Shown: in pieces, positions 190-48,497 of the stretch
How the letters are laid out: every line of letters begins with the position of its first letter
Numbering within the stretch: position 1 is the stretch's first letter
Assembly: GCA_006226595.1 (NCBI GenBank)
Contig: SBGP01000081.1
Span: 1-64,000, forward strand
DNA length: 64,000 nt
Source: Deltaproteobacteria bacterium
Lineage (GTDB): Bacteria > Myxococcota_A > UBA796 > GCA-2862545
Direction: 5' to 3'
Program-made: the position numbers and the translations under genes
Notes under the pieces: generated by a model
Told to the model about the DNA's origin: nothing
The model's database searches: none
Seen by the model: only the letters and a program-made list of their open reading frames with translations

Positions 190-1776
190 GCATGCACGGT
201 GGTCGCCGTCGCCGACCACGTGTTGGTCGCGTCCGGCGATCGCTGGTCCTGGGACACAGGCACGGACCATGGAACAGCGTGGCGTGTGCTCGGCTTCGAC
301 GACTCGCTGTGGGCGAGCGGCGCGAGCGAGCTTGGCTACGGCGACTCCGACGAGACCACGCCGCTCCCGGCATCCGCACAGGGGGAGCCGTCGTACTACT
401 TCCGTCGCGAGGTCTACGTGGACGGGGTGGCGACGGGAGCCACCCTGGATGTCGTCTTCGACGACGGCATCGCCGTGTGGGTCAACGGCACCCAGGTTCT
501 CGCCGAGAACGTCGACGACGGCGTGGACTATGCGGCCTGGGCCTCGACGACCTCGGCGGACAACCAGGCGGCTTCCGCGAGCCTGAGCGACGGCCTGCTC
601 GTCGATGGGCTGAATCTCGTGGCGGTCATGGTGAAGAACCGCAGCGCGGCCTCCAGCGATCTGTCCTTCGACCTCACGCTCACCGCTGACCTCGACACCT
701 GCTCGAACGCGGGCATCACCGGAGCCTTTGCGCCGGTCGGCTGCCCACCCGCGGAAGCCCCGTCCCTGTCGGGCGCCGGTCTACCGCTCCTCGAGAGCAA
801 TCCCGGGGCGCCGGTTGCGCTGTACCTCGACTTCGACGGCGGTGAGTACCTGAACAGCAGCGGCACACGCGTTCCGTACGCTGGCTACGACACCGATGGC
901 GACGCGACGACCTTCAATGCCTCCGAGCAGGCGGACATCGCGCAGTCCTGGGAGCACGTGACCCGGTACTTCGCGATGTTCGACGTCAACGTCACCACCG
1001 ATGACGCAGCCCGCGCCGCGTCGACGGGATGGGCGTGGATCCTGATCACCGAAGAGGCCAGTGGAGGCTCGGGCGTGCTCTCGAGCAGCGCCGTGGGCAC
1101 CCCGCCCACCGCTCGCTCCTACGTCGGCGCGAGCTCGGTCCGCGATGCCGACCGAAGCCGGCGCGTCGCCCACGAGCTCGGCCACAACTTCCGCCTGAAC
1201 CACAACGGCGCCTGGGACGGCACCACCTTCTACAAGTGGGAGGACTTCGCGGGCTGGGACGGGCAGTTCGGCTCGGTGATGGGCGGAGGTGGCAAGGGCC
1301 AGGTGAACGGCTGGGCCCTCGGCGCCAGCTCGGAGGGCACGACCGTCGTGCAGGACTCGATGGCGGTCATCGAGGACAAGGTGCGCTCCGTGGGCGGTGG
1401 GTCGAGTGGCTGGGCCGTGGACGACTTCACGGCACCCGCGCCGATGTGCGACGCGGTCACTCGGCTCGAGCGAACGGGCGTACTCGGTCATCCCCAGGAC
1501 GAAGACCTGTTCGGCTTCGAGTGGCGCGGTGGCAGTGCCATGGTCTCGGTCGCGCCCCTCGGGGTGTCGTCGGTCGACCCGGTCGTCGAGCTCCTCGATG
1601 GCGGCGGCGCCGTGGTCGGCGGCGAGGGGTTCCACGCCGATCTTCCGGCGGGTACGTACCGGGCGCGCATCCGCACGCGCAGCGGGCTCGCGCAGGGGTA
1701 CGACAAGGCCTCGATCAGCGGAAACCAGGACGTGGCGCGCTCCGAGCTCGGCGCGTATCGGCTGGTCATCGACTGA
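1..1776 (+). CDS. Surface metzincin-type metalloprotease with Asp-rich linker (5' end outside window)
   Basis: The reading frame is open from position 1, so the N-terminus (probably a signal or lipoprotein peptide) is missing. Domains in order: the Asp/Ala/Thr linker (about 63 residues); a beta-sandwich-like domain (bases ~199-700) with the W..FDDS.W.....LGYGD pattern seen in secreted proteins; then a zinc protease domain. The zinc motif HELGHNFRLNH (HExxHxxxxxH) is at bases 1171-1203, with a candidate Met-turn (SVMGGG) about 25 residues later; together these define a metzincin. The last ~95 residues resemble a PPC (pre-peptidase C-terminal) domain, with DEDLFGFEW and a final AYRLVI strand. 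It is likely exported and surface-anchored. The substrate is unknown. Confidence 0.85.
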   Translation, partial: ADADTDADADTDADADTDADADTDADADTDADADTDADADTDADTDTDTDADTDADADTDTDPACTVVAVADHVLVASGDRWSWDTGTDHGTAWRVLGFDDSLWASGASELGYGDSDETTPLPASAQGEPSYYFRREVYVDGVATGATLDVVFDDGIAVWVNGTQVLAENVDDGVDYAAWASTTSADNQAASASLSDGLLVDGLNLVAVMVKNRSAASSDLSFDLTLTADLDTCSNAGITGAFAPVGCPPAEAPSLSGAGLPLLESNPGAPVALYLDFDGGEYLNSSGTRVPYAGYDTDGDATTFNASEQADIAQSWEHVTRYFAMFDVNVTTDDAARAASTGWAWILITEEASGGSGVLSSSAVGTPPTARSYVGASSVRDADRSRRVAHELGHNFRLNHNGAWDGTTFYKWEDFAGWDGQFGSVMGGGGKGQVNGWALGASSEGTTVVQDSMAVIEDKVRSVGGGSSGWAVDDFTAPAPMCDAVTRLERTGVLGHPQDEDLFGFEWRGGSAMVSVAPLGVSSVDPVVELLDGGGAVVGGEGFHADLPAGTYRARIRTRSGLAQGYDKASISGNQDVARSELGAYRLVID

Positions 1777-1848
1777 GGCTGCGCCTAGCCCGTCGCGCGA
1801 CGAGTTGGCGGCGGCGCGCGCACATCCGATACTCGTGGGCATGGAGGC

Positions 1849-2271
1849 TTGGTGGATCTGGGGGCGCAGCTGTACGAACGCATCGGCGGGCGACCCGGAC
1901 TGCGTCCGGTGATCGTGCGCTTCTACGAGAAGATGTCCGCGCATCCCGTGCTTGGGCGCTTCTTCGACGATGTCGACCTCGCCCACCAGGCGCAGCGCCT
2001 CGAGGACTTCCTCTGCGACGGGGTCGTCGGCGAGACCCGCTTCGGCGGCACCTACCCGCTGCGCGCCCACGCCCACATGCTGATCACCCAGCCCATGCTC
2101 ATCGAGCGGGTTCGACTGCTGCGTGAGGCCATCGAGGAGCTCGGCCATCCGCCGGAGATCGTGACGCTGTGGCTGCGCGTGGACGCGCTGTGGCACGGCG
2201 CGGTGCGCAAGCACAGCGTCGCGGACTGTCGACCGTCGATGTCGGGCAAGCCCCTCAAGGTGGTCGAGTAG
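1849..2271 (+). CDS. Truncated haemoglobin (group II-like)
   Basis: A 140-residue protein of the truncated 2-over-2 globin family, which binds haem and O2/NO in the cytoplasm. The N-terminus LYERIGGRPGLRPVIVRFYE and the run HPVLGRFFDDVD are the classic helix A/B and CD signatures. The likely proximal haem histidine is H74 or H76 in LRAHAHML. Length is slightly over the usual 120-135. The start is uncertain: a GGAGG at 1843-1847 sits closer to GTG 1852 (spacing 4) than to TTG 1849. The gene stands alone on its strand. The nearby ODP di-iron protein is another candidate gas-binding protein, but I see no shared operon. Confidence 0.88.
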   Translation: MVDLGAQLYERIGGRPGLRPVIVRFYEKMSAHPVLGRFFDDVDLAHQAQRLEDFLCDGVVGETRFGGTYPLRAHAHMLITQPMLIERVRLLREAIEELGHPPEIVTLWLRVDALWHGAVRKHSVADCRPSMSGKPLKVVE

Positions 2272-35997: not shown

Positions 35998-36177
35998 ATG
36001 GTCACGGTGGAACAGCGTCGTCATCCGCTCGCGCTTCGAGGCGTGGAAGCGCTGCTGCGTCGACTCCCGCAGCCCGAACTCTCCGCCACGGCGCTGCATG
36101 CCGCCGCCGAGCGTTCCGCCAGACGTGCGGGCGCGATGGCGGCCCAGTGGTCACTGTCGGTGGAGTCGGCGGGATGA
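35998..36177 (+). CDS. Small coupled protein upstream of AIR-synthase-like gene
   Basis: 59 residues, preceded by AGGAAGGA. The sequence is helical and basic, rich in Arg/Ala/Leu (HPLALRGVEALLRRLPQPELSATALHAAAERSARRAG). The stop overlaps the next start as ATGA at 36174-36177, so translation is coupled. It lies 20 bp after the cytochrome gene and may also be on that transcript. No family recognised. It could be a binding partner of the downstream protein or a translation-coupling leader. Confidence 0.5.
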   Translation: MVTVEQRRHPLALRGVEALLRRLPQPELSATALHAAAERSARRAGAMAAQWSLSVESAG

Positions 36178-37121
36178 GTCGCGAGTTCGCGCGGATTGCC
36201 GCGCTCCGGGCCCGGGTGGGGGCCGGGCCCAGGACCCAGCGCAATGCCCCGTTCGAGTCGGACTGCGAGCTCCTGCAGCTCGGCGAACAACTCCTGGCGC
36301 TCACCGTCGACACGCTCGGGGACGAGCTCCGCGAGGGCCTGGTGGCCGACCTGTACAGCGTGGGCTGGCTCGCGGCGGTCGCCAGCCTCTCGGACCTCGC
36401 GGCGGTCGGGGCGCGGCCGGAGGGCCTGCTGTGCTCGCTGTCGCTCCCGGAAGAGGACAGCAGCCGCCTCGACGCGGGACTCGCGGATGCGCTGGCTGCC
36501 CACGGCGTGGGGCTGCTCGGTGGGGATCTGCAGTTCGACAGCCAGCTCAGCGTGACCACCGTCGGCGTGGGCACGGTCGCGCATCCGCTCACTCGGCGCG
36601 GCACCCGCCCTGGAGATGTGCTGTTCGCAGCGGGGGCCTTCGGCGCCGGCAACCTGCTCGCACTGACCCACCTGCCCGAGCACGAAGCCGCCTATCGTCC
36701 GCGTGTGGACTTCGACCGGTGGCTTGCGCACGTGCCCCGCGTCCGCGCGTGCACGGACTCCAGCGACGGCCTGCTCGGAGCACTGCACAACCTCGCCGAT
36801 GGCGTGGGCTTCGAGGTCGACCTCGAACGCGTGCCCTTCGTCGACGCGGTCCGCGAGGTCTGCGCCGTCACCGGACTTCCGCTCGCTGGCTTCGCCGCCG
36901 GCGTGGTCGGCGACTACGGGCTCGTGTTCACCGCGGCACCCGCGCACGGCGCTGCGCTCGAAACCGCCGGGTTCGCGCGCCTCGGTCGGGCGGTGGAGGG
37001 GCCGCACCGGCTGGTTCACGGGGAGGCGCTGTGGGTCGTCGACGAAGCCTCGGTCGCGTCACTCGCCGAGGCGCGCTCGGCGGAGGCGCTGCTCGCGGGA
37101 CTCGCGGCCTGTCGTCGCTAG
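36174..37121 (+). CDS. AIR-synthase-related (ThiL/PurM-fold) protein
   Basis: 315 residues. PurM-like two-domain fold as in ThiL and SelD: VGWLAAVASLSDLAAVGARPEGLLCSLSLP, GLLGGDLQ, then RVRACTDSSDGLLGALHNLADGVGFEVDLERVPF (DSSDGL is the family's second metal/phosphate site) and GDYGLVFT. The normal N-terminal GDDxA metal motif is replaced by ESDCELL, so ATP-dependent kinase activity is doubtful without experiment. It could be a thiamine-phosphate kinase relative of altered function. It converges tail to tail with the P-loop kinase gene, sharing CTAG at 37118-37121. Confidence 0.75.
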   Translation: MSREFARIAALRARVGAGPRTQRNAPFESDCELLQLGEQLLALTVDTLGDELREGLVADLYSVGWLAAVASLSDLAAVGARPEGLLCSLSLPEEDSSRLDAGLADALAAHGVGLLGGDLQFDSQLSVTTVGVGTVAHPLTRRGTRPGDVLFAAGAFGAGNLLALTHLPEHEAAYRPRVDFDRWLAHVPRVRACTDSSDGLLGALHNLADGVGFEVDLERVPFVDAVREVCAVTGLPLAGFAAGVVGDYGLVFTAAPAHGAALETAGFARLGRAVEGPHRLVHGEALWVVDEASVASLAEARSAEALLAGLAACRR

Positions 37122-37714
37122 CCACGTCCCGTCAGCCGCTCGACGATGCGGGCGGCGTTGTCCTCGGGGGGCGCGGTGCCGTCGAGTGCGGTCCACGGGC
37201 CGTGAGCCCGCTCGATCTCGGCCCATAGCGGCGTCATCTTCGCCTGGAATCGCGCGAACGCGGCCTCGGCCTCGGAGTGCCCGCGCTCGTAGGCAGTGCT
37301 CTCGGTCTTGCGGGTGCGCGCGACCTCGTCGGGCACGCGGAGCACGAAGGTGTGCTCGGGCACCGGAAACAGCGTGGGGCACGCGTCGAACAGCGCGGCC
37401 GGACCGCCGTGTGCGCGCTCGGACACCGCGTACTTGTACCAGTAGCCGTCGAGCACCACGACCTCCGCGCCGGAGGCCATGCCGAGCTGGAGCGAGCGTG
37501 CCAGCCCGTGGAGGAGCAAGGTGCCGCGTCCGAGGTGGTCGAGCTCCCGCAGGTAGGTCTGCGCTTCACCGCGGCGCAGCAGGTCCCCGAGGGCGTCCCA
37601 GATCTGCACCACACGGGCGGAGGTGTTTCGGGCGTCGAGGGCCTCGACCACCGCGTTCGCGAGGGTCGACTTTCCGGTGCCGTCGGGGCCGGTGAGGGCG
37701 ATCAGTCGGGTCAT
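37118..37714 (-). CDS. Thymidylate-kinase-like P-loop kinase
   Basis: 198 residues. P-loop GPDGTGKS (residues 9-16) in MTRLIALTGPDGTGKST. A DGYWYKYAVSERAHGG segment follows a beta-strand in place of the usual DR motif of dTMP kinase. The lid region shows RVPDEVARTRKTESTAYERGHSE. The family phosphorylates nucleoside monophosphates, but variants of this type act on other substrates or in natural-product clusters. It is the last gene of a four-gene operon, with its ATG overlapping the previous stop (ATGA at 37714-37711). Confidence 0.72.
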   Translation of the reverse strand: MTRLIALTGPDGTGKSTLANAVVEALDARNTSARVVQIWDALGDLLRRGEAQTYLRELDHLGRGTLLLHGLARSLQLGMASGAEVVVLDGYWYKYAVSERAHGGPAALFDACPTLFPVPEHTFVLRVPDEVARTRKTESTAYERGHSEAEAAFARFQAKMTPLWAEIERAHGPWTALDGTAPPEDNAARIVERLTGRG

Positions 37715-39024
37715 TCGAGGATCCGCAGCAGCTCGGCGGCCGGGTGGTCCTGCAGTCGCTCGCCGCCGAGACCGAGGGCGTGCTGGACCCCGGAGACGCC
37801 GAGCACGCCGAAGGCTGCGACGAGGATGGCGACCAGGGTGCCATGGCCGTGGTCGAGGGCGAGACCGTGCCAGATGCGGCGCGAGGCGGAGACGCGGTCG
37901 GCCATGCGCCCGAGTCTTCCGGTCCGGGGGGCACGGCCGATGAGGCGCTCGCGCTCGTCCGCGTCGGGGCGAAGCCAGCGCCGCCAGATGCCAAGCCACG
38001 CCTCGGAGCGCTCCCCGAAGTCGCCGGAGAGCAGGAAGATCACCTGCTCGCGCTCGATGTCTGCGAGGTGCACGGACCGGGAGCGCACGAGGCGGTCGAC
38101 GTCGGCGAGGCGGGTGTCCACGTCCTTGCGCGTGAACGCCGTGGATGCCCTTCGCCAGCGCGTGCGCAGGTCTTCGGGAATGCCGATCGGCTGCATGGCG
38201 TCGGCGAGCGACAGCACCCGGTACACCGCATCCTCGGCGCCCGCGGTCCGCACGCGGGCCTCGAAGCGCTCCCAGTCGACGCCCGGGCCGAGCACGAGGT
38301 TGTACACGTCGGCGAGCTCGCGCACGCCGGTCTTGAAGTAGGGCAGGTGAATCGCGAGGTGCAGGAGGTTGTCCTCCCACGACATGCGCCAGGCGCGGGT
38401 CGTCGCGAAGTCGACCTCGACCGCGTCGCGCCAGATCGCGTCGAGGTCGGGCTGGAACGGGCTCTTCGGTGACACGAGGCCCCAGTGCGTGCCCACCACG
38501 CATGCACGGTCGGGTGACAGGTATGGCGGGCAGTGGTGCGAGCTCTCGGGGAAGATGGACACGCCGAACAGGTCGGTCACGCACACGAAGCCGAGCTCGG
38601 CGAGCACGGCCTTGAAGCCGTCCACGTCCTCGGGGCGCACCAGGATGTCGCTGTCGTTCATGCGCTTGTACGTGGGCTCGGCGTACAGCGTCTCGGCGAA
38701 GCCGATGCCCTTGAGGAGGATGACGTCGATGCTGCGCTCGCGGCAGCGTTCGAGGAAGCGCTCGGTCCACGTGCGTCGGGCGAGGTTGACCTCGGCGATG
38801 TGGGCCTCTTCGGCCTGCCAGCGCGCGAGGACCTCGGCGGGAAGCTGCTCGTCGAGTCCGAGGGCGCGAAGGTGCTTCAGGGCGAGGGGAATCGTGCGGT
38901 TGAGGTCGGCCAGCGCGTCGAGTTGGGCCAGGTCCCCGGCGGGCCACAGCGCGCGCACCCGGGCCTCGATGGCCGCGACCTGCGCGCGGCCGAGCAGACA
39001 CACGAGCTCGGAGGTCGGGTTCAT
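37711..39024 (-). CDS. NTP_transf_5-type nucleotidyltransferase family protein
   Basis: 437 residues. The motif LLKGIGFAETLYAEPTYKRMNDSDILVRPEDVDGFKAVLAELGF matches the uncharacterised nucleotidyltransferase family (LLKG, then R-D-x-D with the two Asp as metal ligands: NDSDIL). Around it are long helical regions, including one with LHLAIHLPYFKTGVRELADVY. The C-terminus has a hydrophobic stretch (TLVAILVAAFGVLGVSGV), which suggests membrane association. The family is found beside phosphotransfer and modification enzymes, with unknown substrates. Both ends overlap neighbours by ATGA: start 39024 over the lipid kinase stop, stop 37711 over the P-loop kinase start. Confidence 0.75.
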   Translation of the reverse strand: MNPTSELVCLLGRAQVAAIEARVRALWPAGDLAQLDALADLNRTIPLALKHLRALGLDEQLPAEVLARWQAEEAHIAEVNLARRTWTERFLERCRERSIDVILLKGIGFAETLYAEPTYKRMNDSDILVRPEDVDGFKAVLAELGFVCVTDLFGVSIFPESSHHCPPYLSPDRACVVGTHWGLVSPKSPFQPDLDAIWRDAVEVDFATTRAWRMSWEDNLLHLAIHLPYFKTGVRELADVYNLVLGPGVDWERFEARVRTAGAEDAVYRVLSLADAMQPIGIPEDLRTRWRRASTAFTRKDVDTRLADVDRLVRSRSVHLADIEREQVIFLLSGDFGERSEAWLGIWRRWLRPDADERERLIGRAPRTGRLGRMADRVSASRRIWHGLALDHGHGTLVAILVAAFGVLGVSGVQHALGLGGERLQDHPAAELLRILE

Positions 39025-40007
39025 GGACACATCCTCACCGCCTTGGGGAGCACGCGGGCGACGACGTGGCGGGCGGTGCGCGACTCCCCGTCGACCTCGA
39101 CGGTCCGGGCTCGGTCGAGGCGAATGTCGACGAGGTTCGCGGGCTGACTCGCGGTGCCCGAACACTCCGAGAACTGTCCGCCGTGCAGCGCGGCAAGTGC
39201 GACCAGCACCTCGCGACGGCCGACGTCGCCACACAGGTGGAGCCCGAAGTGGCCGTCGTCGGGGAGGGTGGCAAGGTCGAAGCGCATGTCGCCGCCGAGC
39301 CAGGGCGTCTTGACCACCGCGAGGCTCGCCATGCGCCCTCGTGCGAAGGGCTCGCCATCGGCGAGGACCTCGCCCCGCAGCGGGTCGAAGTGAGCGAGCA
39401 CGCGCAGGCCAGCGACGACGAACGCGGCGTCGACCCAGCGTCGCTTCAGCGTGCGAAGCAGGCCTCGCGAGCGGTGCACGCGCTCGTTGCCGTCGGCGGT
39501 GAGCCCGAGGCTTGCCGCGGCCAGGAACCACACGGGTGGGGCGTCGTCGAGGTGCAGCTCGCCGACATCCATGGGCCGGGCGGCCGCGAAGTCGAGCCGG
39601 TGGGGCACCCCTTCCGCACGCAGAGGCTTGTGGAGGTCGTTGGAGGAGCCGAGCCCCACGGCGCCGAGGGTGAGGTCCTCGAGGCGCACGCCGGTGGTGG
39701 GAAGCGCGACGCGCAGGGCATTGAGCAGGGTGTGGACGGTGCCGTCGCCGCCCGCCGCCACGAAGCGCCGCGCCCCGGCGAGCAGGCGGTTCACCACCCA
39801 CGCGTGGACGACGGGCTCGAGGACCTCGCCGTCGAGGCGCTCGGGATGTGCGAGGGTCGCGCAGTGTGCGAGCCCCGCCTGCCGCGCGGGCTCGGAGGTG
39901 AGGAAGGAGCGCCAGCGCGTGGCTCCGGCGCCGGCATTGCAGTGCGGGTTCACGAACACCGCATCGGCGACGAGCGCGTTCTCGCTCGGTGTCACCGGTC
40001 GAATCAT
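39021..40007 (-). CDS. Diacylglycerol-kinase-like lipid kinase (YegS/DagK family)
   Basis: 328 residues from ATG 40007, whose first bases overlap the previous stop (ATGA); ATG 40016 is an alternative. GGDGT at residues 86-90 is the ATP-binding signature, preceded by AVFVNPHCNAGAG, a variant of the usual NPxSG strand. GLGSSNDLHKPL follows at the usual place of the family's GTxND motif. The family uses ATP to phosphorylate a lipid hydroxyl: diacylglycerol, sphingoid base or a prenol-like alcohol. As second gene of the four-gene operon, its substrate may be the product of, or related to, the fused kinase upstream. Confidence 0.85.
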   Translation of the reverse strand: MIRPVTPSENALVADAVFVNPHCNAGAGATRWRSFLTSEPARQAGLAHCATLAHPERLDGEVLEPVVHAWVVNRLLAGARRFVAAGGDGTVHTLLNALRVALPTTGVRLEDLTLGAVGLGSSNDLHKPLRAEGVPHRLDFAAARPMDVGELHLDDAPPVWFLAAASLGLTADGNERVHRSRGLLRTLKRRWVDAAFVVAGLRVLAHFDPLRGEVLADGEPFARGRMASLAVVKTPWLGGDMRFDLATLPDDGHFGLHLCGDVGRREVLVALAALHGGQFSECSGTASQPANLVDIRLDRARTVEVDGESRTARHVVARVLPKAVRMCP

Positions 40008-41452
40008 CCCATCCACCCGTACAGCGCGAGTCCGGTGATCGCGCCGGTGAGCGACCCGAGCAGGTTCACCGCGTCATTCGTCATCCATCGGGGCCCGTGG
40101 GTGTGGTGGCCGATGACGCCGCAGTGCACGTGGTCTTCGGTGTCCGCCTCGCAGGCCGTGCATCGGTAGCGAGCCTGCCACAGGTCGCCGATGACGCTGT
40201 CCGCGGTCGAGCCGGCCATCCCGCCGATGCCGCCCGCGAGCACGAGGGCGGGTGCGAAGGACCCGGTTGCGGCGAGGTAGCCCGCGGTGGGCAGCACGCC
40301 GCCGAGCAGGGCCGCACCGTAGCCAGCGACGGTCACGCCACCGCTGGTTCCGGGGGCCACCGGCTGGAGCGAGGTGATGCGGCGCGGGGTCTCGGGCGAG
40401 AGCACGCCCAGCTCCGAGGCCAGGGTGTCGGCGGCCGCGGCGCCGAGGGCACCGGCGTAGGCCCACAGTGCCGCAGGACTGCCGGTGAGCCCGAACACCA
40501 GCGCGGCGACCCCTCCGAGGCCGACGTTCGCGAAGATCTGCAGGTGGTCGCGGCGAGCGCCCTTGCCCTGCAGCGGCTTGTGTCCGTGAGCGACGCGCGA
40601 GGCGAGGTTCACGGCGACGAAGACGAGCAGCAGCGCGCCGAACCAGCCCCCGCCCCCGCACGCGAGGACCACGAAGCCCATGAGCCATGCCGCGAACGCA
40701 CCGGTGGCGGTGAGGTGCGCGCGCCACACGCTGATGCCGACGATCGTGGCGCTAAGCCCCGCTGCCGCGAGGTGAGCCATCAGTGCCGGCATGTCCAGGT
40801 CGGCGGTGGCCGCCAGGTAGGCGCCCGCGACCACGGGCACGAGCACGTTGTCGGTCCCCCACGGCGACATGCCCTCGACAGCAGTGACGAGTGCGCCCGC
40901 GACCAGCCCGATCACGCAGGCGGCGAGCGGTGGCGCGAGCCCGAAGCCGACCAGGCAGCCGACGACGGCGAGCCACGACACGACGAAGGCGGTGGCGCTG
41001 CCCTCGATGGTACGGGTGCTGCCGTGCACCGGGTAGCTGCGGCGGCCGAAGCGCCGGCCCACCAGTGCCGCGAGCCCGTCCGAGAGCGCGAGGAGAAGCA
41101 CCGTGGCGACGAACAGCCCCGGTTCCCGCCAGGTGAGCAGCCCCGCGAAGTACACGCCGGCCGGGTACCAGGCGGCGCCGTGCCCGGAGCGGTCGACCGC
41201 GTGGATGGACTGCAGCCAGCCGAAGTGACGGGTGACGAGCAGGAGCACCGCGAACATCGCGCCGAGCAGGCCGACGGAGTGCACGCTCGTGAACAGCCAC
41301 GGGAAGCCCAGGATCCACGCGCCGCACGCGATGTGGCTGAACTTGCGCGTCGCCTCGTTGCCGGCACCGCGCGCGCGGCCGACCTCGCCGAGTGCGAGCA
41401 GCGACAGCAGCACCACCGCGGTGAGGAGCATGCCGGGGATGTCGTGTTCCAC
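40004..41452 (-). CDS. Fusion of phytol/dolichol-kinase-like domain and DUF92 (VTE6-like) domain
   Basis: 482 residues from GTG 41452, after GGAGG. Residues ~1-230 form a polytopic prenol-kinase-like domain (VTE5/SEC59/CDP-DAG-synthase fold) with KFSHIACG, LSDGLAALVGRRFGRR (S124-D125-G126) and STRTIEGS. From ~240 on, a DUF92/VTE6-like membrane domain shows LTATGAFAAWLMGF, NLASRVAHGHKPLQGKGARRD, AAAADTLASELGVLSPETPRRITS, VAPGTSGGVTVAGYGAALLGG and STADSVIGD. In cyanobacteria and plants, VTE5 makes phytyl phosphate from phytol and VTE6 makes the diphosphate. The fusion would perform both steps on a prenol. First gene of the four-gene operon. Confidence 0.85.
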   Translation of the reverse strand: MEHDIPGMLLTAVVLLSLLALGEVGRARGAGNEATRKFSHIACGAWILGFPWLFTSVHSVGLLGAMFAVLLLVTRHFGWLQSIHAVDRSGHGAAWYPAGVYFAGLLTWREPGLFVATVLLLALSDGLAALVGRRFGRRSYPVHGSTRTIEGSATAFVVSWLAVVGCLVGFGLAPPLAACVIGLVAGALVTAVEGMSPWGTDNVLVPVVAGAYLAATADLDMPALMAHLAAAGLSATIVGISVWRAHLTATGAFAAWLMGFVVLACGGGGWFGALLLVFVAVNLASRVAHGHKPLQGKGARRDHLQIFANVGLGGVAALVFGLTGSPAALWAYAGALGAAAADTLASELGVLSPETPRRITSLQPVAPGTSGGVTVAGYGAALLGGVLPTAGYLAATGSFAPALVLAGGIGGMAGSTADSVIGDLWQARYRCTACEADTEDHVHCGVIGHHTHGPRWMTNDAVNLLGSLTGAITGLALYGWMG

Positions 41453-46752: not shown

Positions 46753-47631
46753 TCACGCGGCTCGCGCGGTCGTGACGGCTCGGAACAGCGACAGGTCGAT
46801 GTTTCCACCGCTCACCACGGCTACCCTTCGCGACCCGTGGACCCTGGCCAGTCCGGCCACGGCGACCGCGCCGGCCCCCTCGGTGATCAGCCCGTCCTCG
46901 ACGTACAGGCGTCGCATCGCGCTGCGCACCTCGGCATCGCTCACCGTGATCAGCTCGTCGAGATGCCTGTGGAGCAGGCGGGCATTCAGGTCTCCGAGGT
47001 GCTGAACCCGCACACCATCGGCGATCGACGTCATGCGCTCGCTGCGCCTGACGCGTACCCCGACCACGCGCGTACCGCGACCGGCGAAGGCGATGGCGAC
47101 GCCGGCGGCGAGTCCGCCCCCGCCCACCGGCACGACGACGACGTCCGGAGCGTGGGGCCACAGCTCGACACCGACGGTGCACTGTCCGGCGACGATGTCG
47201 GGATCGTCGAAGGGATGCAGCAGGCGCCAGCCTCGCTGCGCAGCGAGTGTCCGCGCGTGCGCCGCGGCGGCCTCGAAGCTGTCGCCGTGTCGGATCACGC
47301 GTGCGCCGAGCGCTTCGGTACGGGCGACCTTCGTGGCGGGTGCGTCTTCGGGGACCACGGCCGTGGCGTCGAGTCCGAGCGCACGCGCCGCCCACGCCAT
47401 GCCGGCAGCGTGGTTGCCAGCCGACGCCGCGATCACGGGTCGATGATCGCCGCGCTCGACCTGCGCGGTCAGCGCCGCGAGCGCCCCCCGGACCTTGTAC
47501 GCGCCGGTCTGCTGGAGGCACTCGAGCTTCAGGCTCGCGCCCGCCCACGACGAGCGCACCAGCGGCGTCGGGGCCAGGTGTCGGCGAACGGCGCGGTACG
47601 CGCAGCCCAGATCTAGACGTACGTGAGCCAT
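46753..47631 (-). CDS. ilvA: Threonine ammonia-lyase (threonine dehydratase), short form
   Basis: 292 residues. PLP enzyme of the fold-type II family. The lysine that binds PLP is K46 in QQTGAYKVRGA (usual TGSFK, here TGAYK). Phosphate-binding SAGNHAAG, glycine loop VGGGGLAAG, terminal SGGNID. It deaminates threonine to 2-oxobutyrate, the committed step to isoleucine. It lacks the C-terminal regulatory domain of biosynthetic IlvA, so isoleucine feedback through that domain is absent; length is that of short or catabolic-type enzymes. Its operon position (last gene, overlapping ilvE by 19 bp) argues for biosynthesis. Serine dehydratase activity is also possible. Confidence 0.88.
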   Translation of the reverse strand: MAHVRLDLGCAYRAVRRHLAPTPLVRSSWAGASLKLECLQQTGAYKVRGALAALTAQVERGDHRPVIAASAGNHAAGMAWAARALGLDATAVVPEDAPATKVARTEALGARVIRHGDSFEAAAAHARTLAAQRGWRLLHPFDDPDIVAGQCTVGVELWPHAPDVVVVPVGGGGLAAGVAIAFAGRGTRVVGVRVRRSERMTSIADGVRVQHLGDLNARLLHRHLDELITVSDAEVRSAMRRLYVEDGLITEGAGAVAVAGLARVHGSRRVAVVSGGNIDLSLFRAVTTARAA

Positions 47632-48497
47632 GGCTCCGCCTCCGGCGAGCGTCCGTGCACGACGTCCTGGTAGAGCTGGCGCAGCTCACGCGTCACCGGC
47701 CCGACCCCGAGTCGTCCGCGTCCATCGAGCCGTGTGACCGGAGCGACCTCCGCGCTCGTCCCCGTGAGGAACACCTCGTCGGCGTCATACAGCTCGTCGA
47801 GGTGGACCTTGCGGCGCTCGGCGCCGGCCAGCTCGGCGACCGTGTCACGGGTGATGCCGGGCAGCGCGTCCTCGTGGTCCACGGCCACCACCTGGCCGTT
47901 CCGCACCAGGAAGACGTTCTCGCCGGTCGCCTCGACGACGAAGCCCTCGGCATCGACGAACAGGGCCTCCTCGAAGCCCGCGCGCACCGCCTCGAGCTTC
48001 GCCACGCACGCGTTCGCATACATGCCGGTCAGCTTGAGCGGGGGGAGGGCCCGCGAGGAGATGCGTCGATACGGAGACACGCGCACGGCGACTCCCCGGT
48101 CCGCGGCGGCATCACCGAGGTGGCTGGTCCACGGGAGCACCGCGACCGCCTGGGTCGCGGTGAGCGCGCCGAGGTCGAGCCCGAGCCCGCCGCCGCTGTA
48201 GAACGCCACCGGTCGAACGTACGCATCGGTCAGGCGGTTCTTGCGAAGCAGGGGGCCGATCGCGGCGGCCATCGCCGCGCTGTCGACGGTCATCGCGAGC
48301 ACCGCGGCGCCGCGGTCGAGTCGCTGCATGTGGGCGTCGAGACGGAACACGGCCGGACCGCGCTCGGTGTCGTACACCCGGATGCCCTCGAACACGCCGG
48401 TGCCGTAGTGCAGGCCGTGGGCGAGGAGCGGAGCGACGGCGTCCGAGGCGGCCCGCAGGTCACCGTCCATCCAGAACGACGAGACTTCGGCGCTCAT
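47613..48497 (-). CDS. ilvE: Branched-chain amino-acid aminotransferase
   Basis: 294 residues, fold-type IV PLP aminotransferase. The PLP lysine is K155 in PPLKLTGMYANAC. Other family marks: HGLHYGTGVFEGIRVY, YVRPVAFYSG, EEALFVDAEGFVVEATGENVFLV and TGTSAEVAPVTRLDGR. It transfers the amino group from glutamate to the three 2-keto acids as the last step of Val/Ile/Leu synthesis. Length is normal (~300). Start overlaps the ilvM stop (ATGA at 48497-48494). Confidence 0.94.
   Translation of the reverse strand: MSAEVSSFWMDGDLRAASDAVAPLLAHGLHYGTGVFEGIRVYDTERGPAVFRLDAHMQRLDRGAAVLAMTVDSAAMAAAIGPLLRKNRLTDAYVRPVAFYSGGGLGLDLGALTATQAVAVLPWTSHLGDAAADRGVAVRVSPYRRISSRALPPLKLTGMYANACVAKLEAVRAGFEEALFVDAEGFVVEATGENVFLVRNGQVVAVDHEDALPGITRDTVAELAGAERRKVHLDELYDADEVFLTGTSAEVAPVTRLDGRGRLGVGPVTRELRQLYQDVVHGRSPEAEPWLTYV

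Follow-up and report, generated by a model that had tools for sequence, protein, structure and literature searches.

The gene at positions 40004 to 41452 (minus strand) of the window, the whole 64,000-nucleotide stretch of DNA analyzed here, raises the question of whether a single bacterial protein can carry out both phosphorylations that lead from a prenol to its diphosphate. In plants, VTE5-type and VTE6-type domains are separate vitamin E salvage enzymes. Here, a GTG start at 41452 and a TGA stop at 40004 to 40006 delimit one frame of 482 amino acids in which two successive kinase-family domains are joined, as an earlier note had claimed from the sequence; this was borne out by a DUF92 profile match in the second half and by the motif pattern of the first. 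The motifs quoted in that note were located at residues 124 to 126 (SDG), 150 to 152 (EGS), and approximately 366 to 374 (APGTSGGVT). The GC3 of the gene (0.90) was as expected for a window of 70.6% GC, and its contig measures 147 kb, in a genome of 7.2 Mb. We rejected the idea that the fusion arose from a frameshift or from faulty assembly, since the 482 codons run without interruption and the same junction is found in relatives. The AlphaFold model of the whole protein was one confident fold (pLDDT, 94; pTM, 0.91).

For the C-terminal half, the Pfam profile of DUF92 (PF01940, COG1836/VTE6) matched residues 234 to 471 (40040 to 40753, minus strand, as are all the features of the protein given below) with an E value of 3e-50 and a score of 171 bits (cut-off, 27.5). 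The match spanned profile positions 3 to 251 of 251, in agreement with the proposal of a complete domain. An alignment of 17 stand-alone DUF92 proteins has 44 conserved columns, of which the window protein retained 38. The motif D342-T-L-A-S-E347 (40412 to 40429), usually DTWATE, has its D, T, and E invariant in those 17 sequences, and the DUF92 alignment also identified G368-T-S-G-G-V (40334 to 40351) and W456-M-T-N459-D460-A-V-N463 (40064 to 40087). For its part, the cluster C431-x-x-C434...E439...H443-C444 (40121 to 40162), common to many stand-alone DUF92 proteins, may be a metal site. The departures from the family are mild, namely, DTLASE for DTWATE (W to L) and ANVG for ANGG. The half resembles VTE6/DUF92/COG1836 proteins (phytyl-phosphate kinase) in its whole domain and conserved columns, whereas it differs from them in forming part of a larger protein, in these two substitutions, and in its score with the TIGR00297 equivalog model of NCBIfam (99.4 bits, below the cut-off of 205.85). 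DUF92 is also common in nonphotosynthetic Paenibacillus and present in archaea; to our knowledge, no archaeal DUF92 protein has a tested substrate.

While the domain search placed the second half in a Pfam family, the N-terminal half alone (residues 1 to 221; 40790 to 41452; domain model pLDDT, 92.6) matched no Pfam or NCBIfam family, and a sequence comparison with the PDB gave no useful match. The commonest weak match among relatives was to PF01148 (CTP_transf_1), in 4 of 27 sequences (best E value, 0.0011), with none for the window protein. The half was therefore assigned by pattern. An alignment of 27 sequences, which takes in stand-alone proteins of the phylum, together with the profiles of relatives, yielded the motifs R36-K37...H40 (41333 to 41347), S-D125-G-L-A-A-L-V-G132 (41057 to 41083; D125-x-x-A-x-x-x-G132), E150-G151-S152 (40997 to 41005; S152 nearly invariant), and E193...D201-N202 (40847 to 40876). 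All eight invariant positions (R36, H40, D125, G132, G151, E193, D201, and N202) are present in the window protein, so that, with the 38 DUF92 columns, family residues occur in both halves, as the earlier note had supposed. We take the set RK..H, D..A...G, EGS, and E...DN to be the pattern of the VTE5/dolichol-kinase/DGK1 family, whose superfamily includes the dolichol kinases. The half is like VTE5 and FOLK (SEC59/DGK1 family) in its RK..H, D-x-x-A-x-x-x-G, (K/R)(S/T)-x-E-G-S, and E...DN elements and in being an integral membrane protein, membership being by pattern, and unlike them in its fusion to DUF92 and in an RT before EGS where KS is usual. Elsewhere in the genome (L131, 5170 to 6408, minus strand) lies a gene for another kinase of this superfamily, which is DGK1-like and carries a long extension at its N terminus.

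On these grounds, it seems reasonably probable that the protein is a bifunctional integral membrane enzyme that converts a prenol, most likely of C15 to C20, to its monophosphate and then to the prenyl diphosphate, with CTP as the likely donor. The VTE5/dolichol-kinase-type half would phosphorylate the prenol, for example farnesol or geranylgeraniol, and the DUF92/VTE6 half would put the second phosphate on the monophosphate. The diphosphate would then go back to isoprenoid metabolism, for instance, to menaquinone or another UbiA-type transfer. Two-step phosphorylation with channelling is a plausible prediction for such a fusion. VTE5 and VTE6 act successively and favor CTP (PMC9782597), they can also use geranylgeraniol and geranylgeranyl phosphate (PMC13415981), and a plant-prokaryote comparison tied COG1836 to phytol-phosphate metabolism (PMC3223725). 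In the literature surveyed, no bacterial protein with such a fusion had a measured activity. Gene-association evidence was reportedly used in the original papers on VTE6 and PlantSEED.

Comparison of the model with known structures suggested another assignment for the second half, that of a cytidylyltransferase that would turn the prenyl monophosphate into CDP-prenol instead of phosphorylating it. In the full-model comparison with VIA-align, the N-terminal half was closest to the CDP-diacylglycerol synthase CdsA (4q2g; Z, 8.8; rmsd, 4.1; 158 aligned) and the C-terminal half resembled the archaeal membrane-lipid enzyme 5guf (Z, 7.2; rmsd, 4.6; 125 aligned), although both Z values are within the range reached by common helical arrangements. 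We take 5guf to be CDP-archaeol synthase. The N-terminal half alone gave a Z of only 6.1 with CdsA, the same level as unrelated channels, and Foldseek returned no significant match. Since plant VTE6 has, in addition, been reported as a kinase (PMC9782597), formation of CDP-prenol appears very improbable. The resemblance of the modeled halves to CdsA and the archaeal enzyme would fit a shared CTP-using ancestry, with the N-terminal half alone at background.

The relatives pointed to a further alternative to a bifunctional enzyme. Among 113 related genomes searched, 20 gave matches, one of them being the genome of the window itself. In 13 relatives of the same order, the same N-terminal domain (31 to 37% identical to that of the window) keeps its motifs and is followed, at the same junction, by a DUF92 half that has lost the catalytic segments and retains only 3 to 10 of the 44 conserved columns. 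Profile comparison (hhalign probability, 97; P, 1.8e-10) still relates this decayed half to the initial part of DUF92. The matches not of this type were the adjacent genes of one member of the order, G022, and a few partial or distant ones. In G022 (L068/L113), the kinase and DUF92 (37 of 44 columns) are neighboring separate genes in different frames. In the G022 kinase frame, a single in-frame TAG (L113, approximately 1954 to 1956) replaces the E of EGS, either a nonsense change or a sequence error. Within the set of 113 related genomes, DUF92 above the cut-off was found in just two, the window genome and that of G022; across the phylum, it was found in 6 of 379 genomes.

The decayed forms thus offer a model in which only the first half works, as a prenol, polyprenol, or diacylglycerol kinase, and the second is structural or regulatory. 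For the window protein we consider this unlikely, given that its 38 conserved columns, with D342, E347, N459-D460, and the C-x-x-C/H-C cluster all in place, would not be expected in a relic. The loss does indicate that the second step is dispensable in the relatives of this order, and it weakens the general claim that fusion means channelling, most of these relatives being devoid of the second active site.

The decayed fusions (L054 to L067) also differ from that of the window in their GNAT and AMP-binding enzyme neighbors, which are absent at the window locus. At the decayed loci (L074 to L087), a GNAT-like gene and an AMP-binding enzyme are often downstream, and a divergent gene for an exported protein of unknown family lies upstream. 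In the N-domain tree, the window gene fell outside a well-supported clade (100/99) made up of 15 decayed forms, among them a copy from the same genus, and the gene order at the window locus and the relatives' loci had nothing in common beside the gene itself, with weak matches only between far-off genes. Hence, the window gene and the copy from the same genus are not related by vertical orthology, and the presence of the window gene would be compatible with either horizontal transfer or descent as an old paralogue. A possible history, which we put forward tentatively, is that the fusion was an old bifunctional prenol-to-prenyl-diphosphate enzyme whose second active site was lost across the order. 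What remained would be a membrane kinase whose second half is a pseudo-enzyme, encoded in another cluster (GNAT plus acyl-AMP ligase), while the window genome would hold an intact form that it probably reacquired by horizontal transfer or retained as an old paralogue. What is new here is the fusion as a variant of known enzymes, and the decayed second half of the nearest relatives is the more unusual point.

Intact fusions were also found outside the order, the earlier note having suggested a screen for them. When named genomes of bacteria and archaea were scanned with short peptide patterns, a method that will have missed other fusions, 51 loci were returned, 2 of them with full fusions: L039, from an Ignavibacteriota genome, and L034, on a 6.3-kb contig of a Chitinophagaceae metagenome-assembled genome. 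The only match among plasmid records was partial. Both full fusions share with the window protein the domain order, a similar length, and both motif sets (DUF92 columns, 38 of 44 in L039 and 41 of 44 in L034), whereas they are only 27 to 29% identical to it in the N-terminal half and 32 to 35% in the C-terminal half and have different gene neighbors. The existence of these full-length homologues, together with that of the relatives with a decayed second half, argues that the two-domain layout is not due to chance. The DUF92 tree was unresolved, and a topology grouping the window protein with L039 and L034 in one clade was not rejected (AU test, p = 0.276).

The neighbors of the L034 fusion bear on its product. 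Two genes away, in divergent orientation, is a homogentisate phytyltransferase gene (1113 to 2036, minus strand; 310 bits against an equivalog cut-off of 226). Since the substrate of that enzyme is phytyl or geranylgeranyl diphosphate, the gene position fits a prenyl-diphosphate product. The enzyme is unexpected in a nonphotosynthetic member of the Chitinophagaceae, and contamination of this assembled genome is possible.

In the window, the fusion heads a run of four minus-strand genes (37118 to 41452) linked by ATGA overlaps, three of which encode kinase-type enzymes. Its stop overlaps the start of a DAGK_cat/YegS-type lipid kinase gene (Pfam; 39021 to 40007), which is followed by genes for an NTP_transf_5 nucleotidyltransferase-like protein (37711 to 39024; Pfam E value, 1.7e-46) and a thymidylate-kinase-like P-loop protein (37118 to 37714). 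No sigma-70-type promoter was found at the locus. A gene for a ThiL/AIRS-type protein (36147 to 37121, plus strand) is convergent with the run, with an overlap of 4 bases between it and the last gene of the four, and further along the window a PALP-family enzyme and a class IV aminotransferase are encoded by overlapping genes (46756 to 48497, minus strand).

The lipid kinase directly after the fusion and the NTP_transf_5 protein beyond it could be read as signs of undecaprenol-type carrier salvage, in which the first half would supply polyprenyl phosphate for cell-envelope glycan synthesis and the second would produce the diphosphate. The presence of dolichol kinases in the N-domain superfamily agrees with such a role, as does the gene for the undecaprenyl-diphosphate phosphatase BacA three genes from the L039 fusion. 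However, the L039 neighborhood is mixed (FtsK, cyclophilin, and DNA polymerase delta), so the proximity of BacA may be accidental, and the phytyltransferase near the L034 fusion points to C20 substrates. Carrier salvage therefore seems improbable.

Phytol, the prenol singled out in the earlier note, found no support, so that the interpretation given there holds in outline but is overly specific on this point. No photosynthetic reaction-centre genes were found in the genome, so that, as far as this search goes, the host is nonphotosynthetic, as had been assumed. Nor did the genome contain a match to homogentisate phytyltransferase (NF009525; E value threshold, 0.001), the enzyme that a tocopherol-type phytol salvage pathway would require. 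Its five UbiA-family matches were heme O synthase, an MqnP-like enzyme, decaprenyl-phosphate phosphoribosyltransferase, and two without an assigned function, so the assigned ones serve other purposes. The MqnP-like gene adjoins one for an aminofutalosine-deaminase-like protein, and this UbiA set makes the menaquinone route a possible consumer of the product.

Taken together, conversion of a C15 to C20 prenol to its diphosphate is backed by the DUF92 match and its conserved columns, the eight N-domain positions, the layout of the L039 and L034 fusions, the adjacent genes of G022, and the L034 phytyltransferase. Counted against it are the lost second active site of the relatives, the missed TIGR00297 cut-off, and the occurrence of DUF92 in nonphotosynthetic Paenibacillus and in archaea.

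In 2022, the prenol salvage pathway was described as missing outside photosynthetic organisms (PMC9782597), and a malaria-parasite prenol kinase has been found since then (PMC10849223). Prenol salvage genes are known in only a minority of organisms. If the proposed function is true, one bacterial protein that carries out both steps would serve as a simple reagent with which to turn prenols into prenyl diphosphates, and it would make it possible to test whether the second step is faster in a fused protein. For its part, the natural series in which the second half is intact, adjacent, or decayed permits a direct test of which residues are important.
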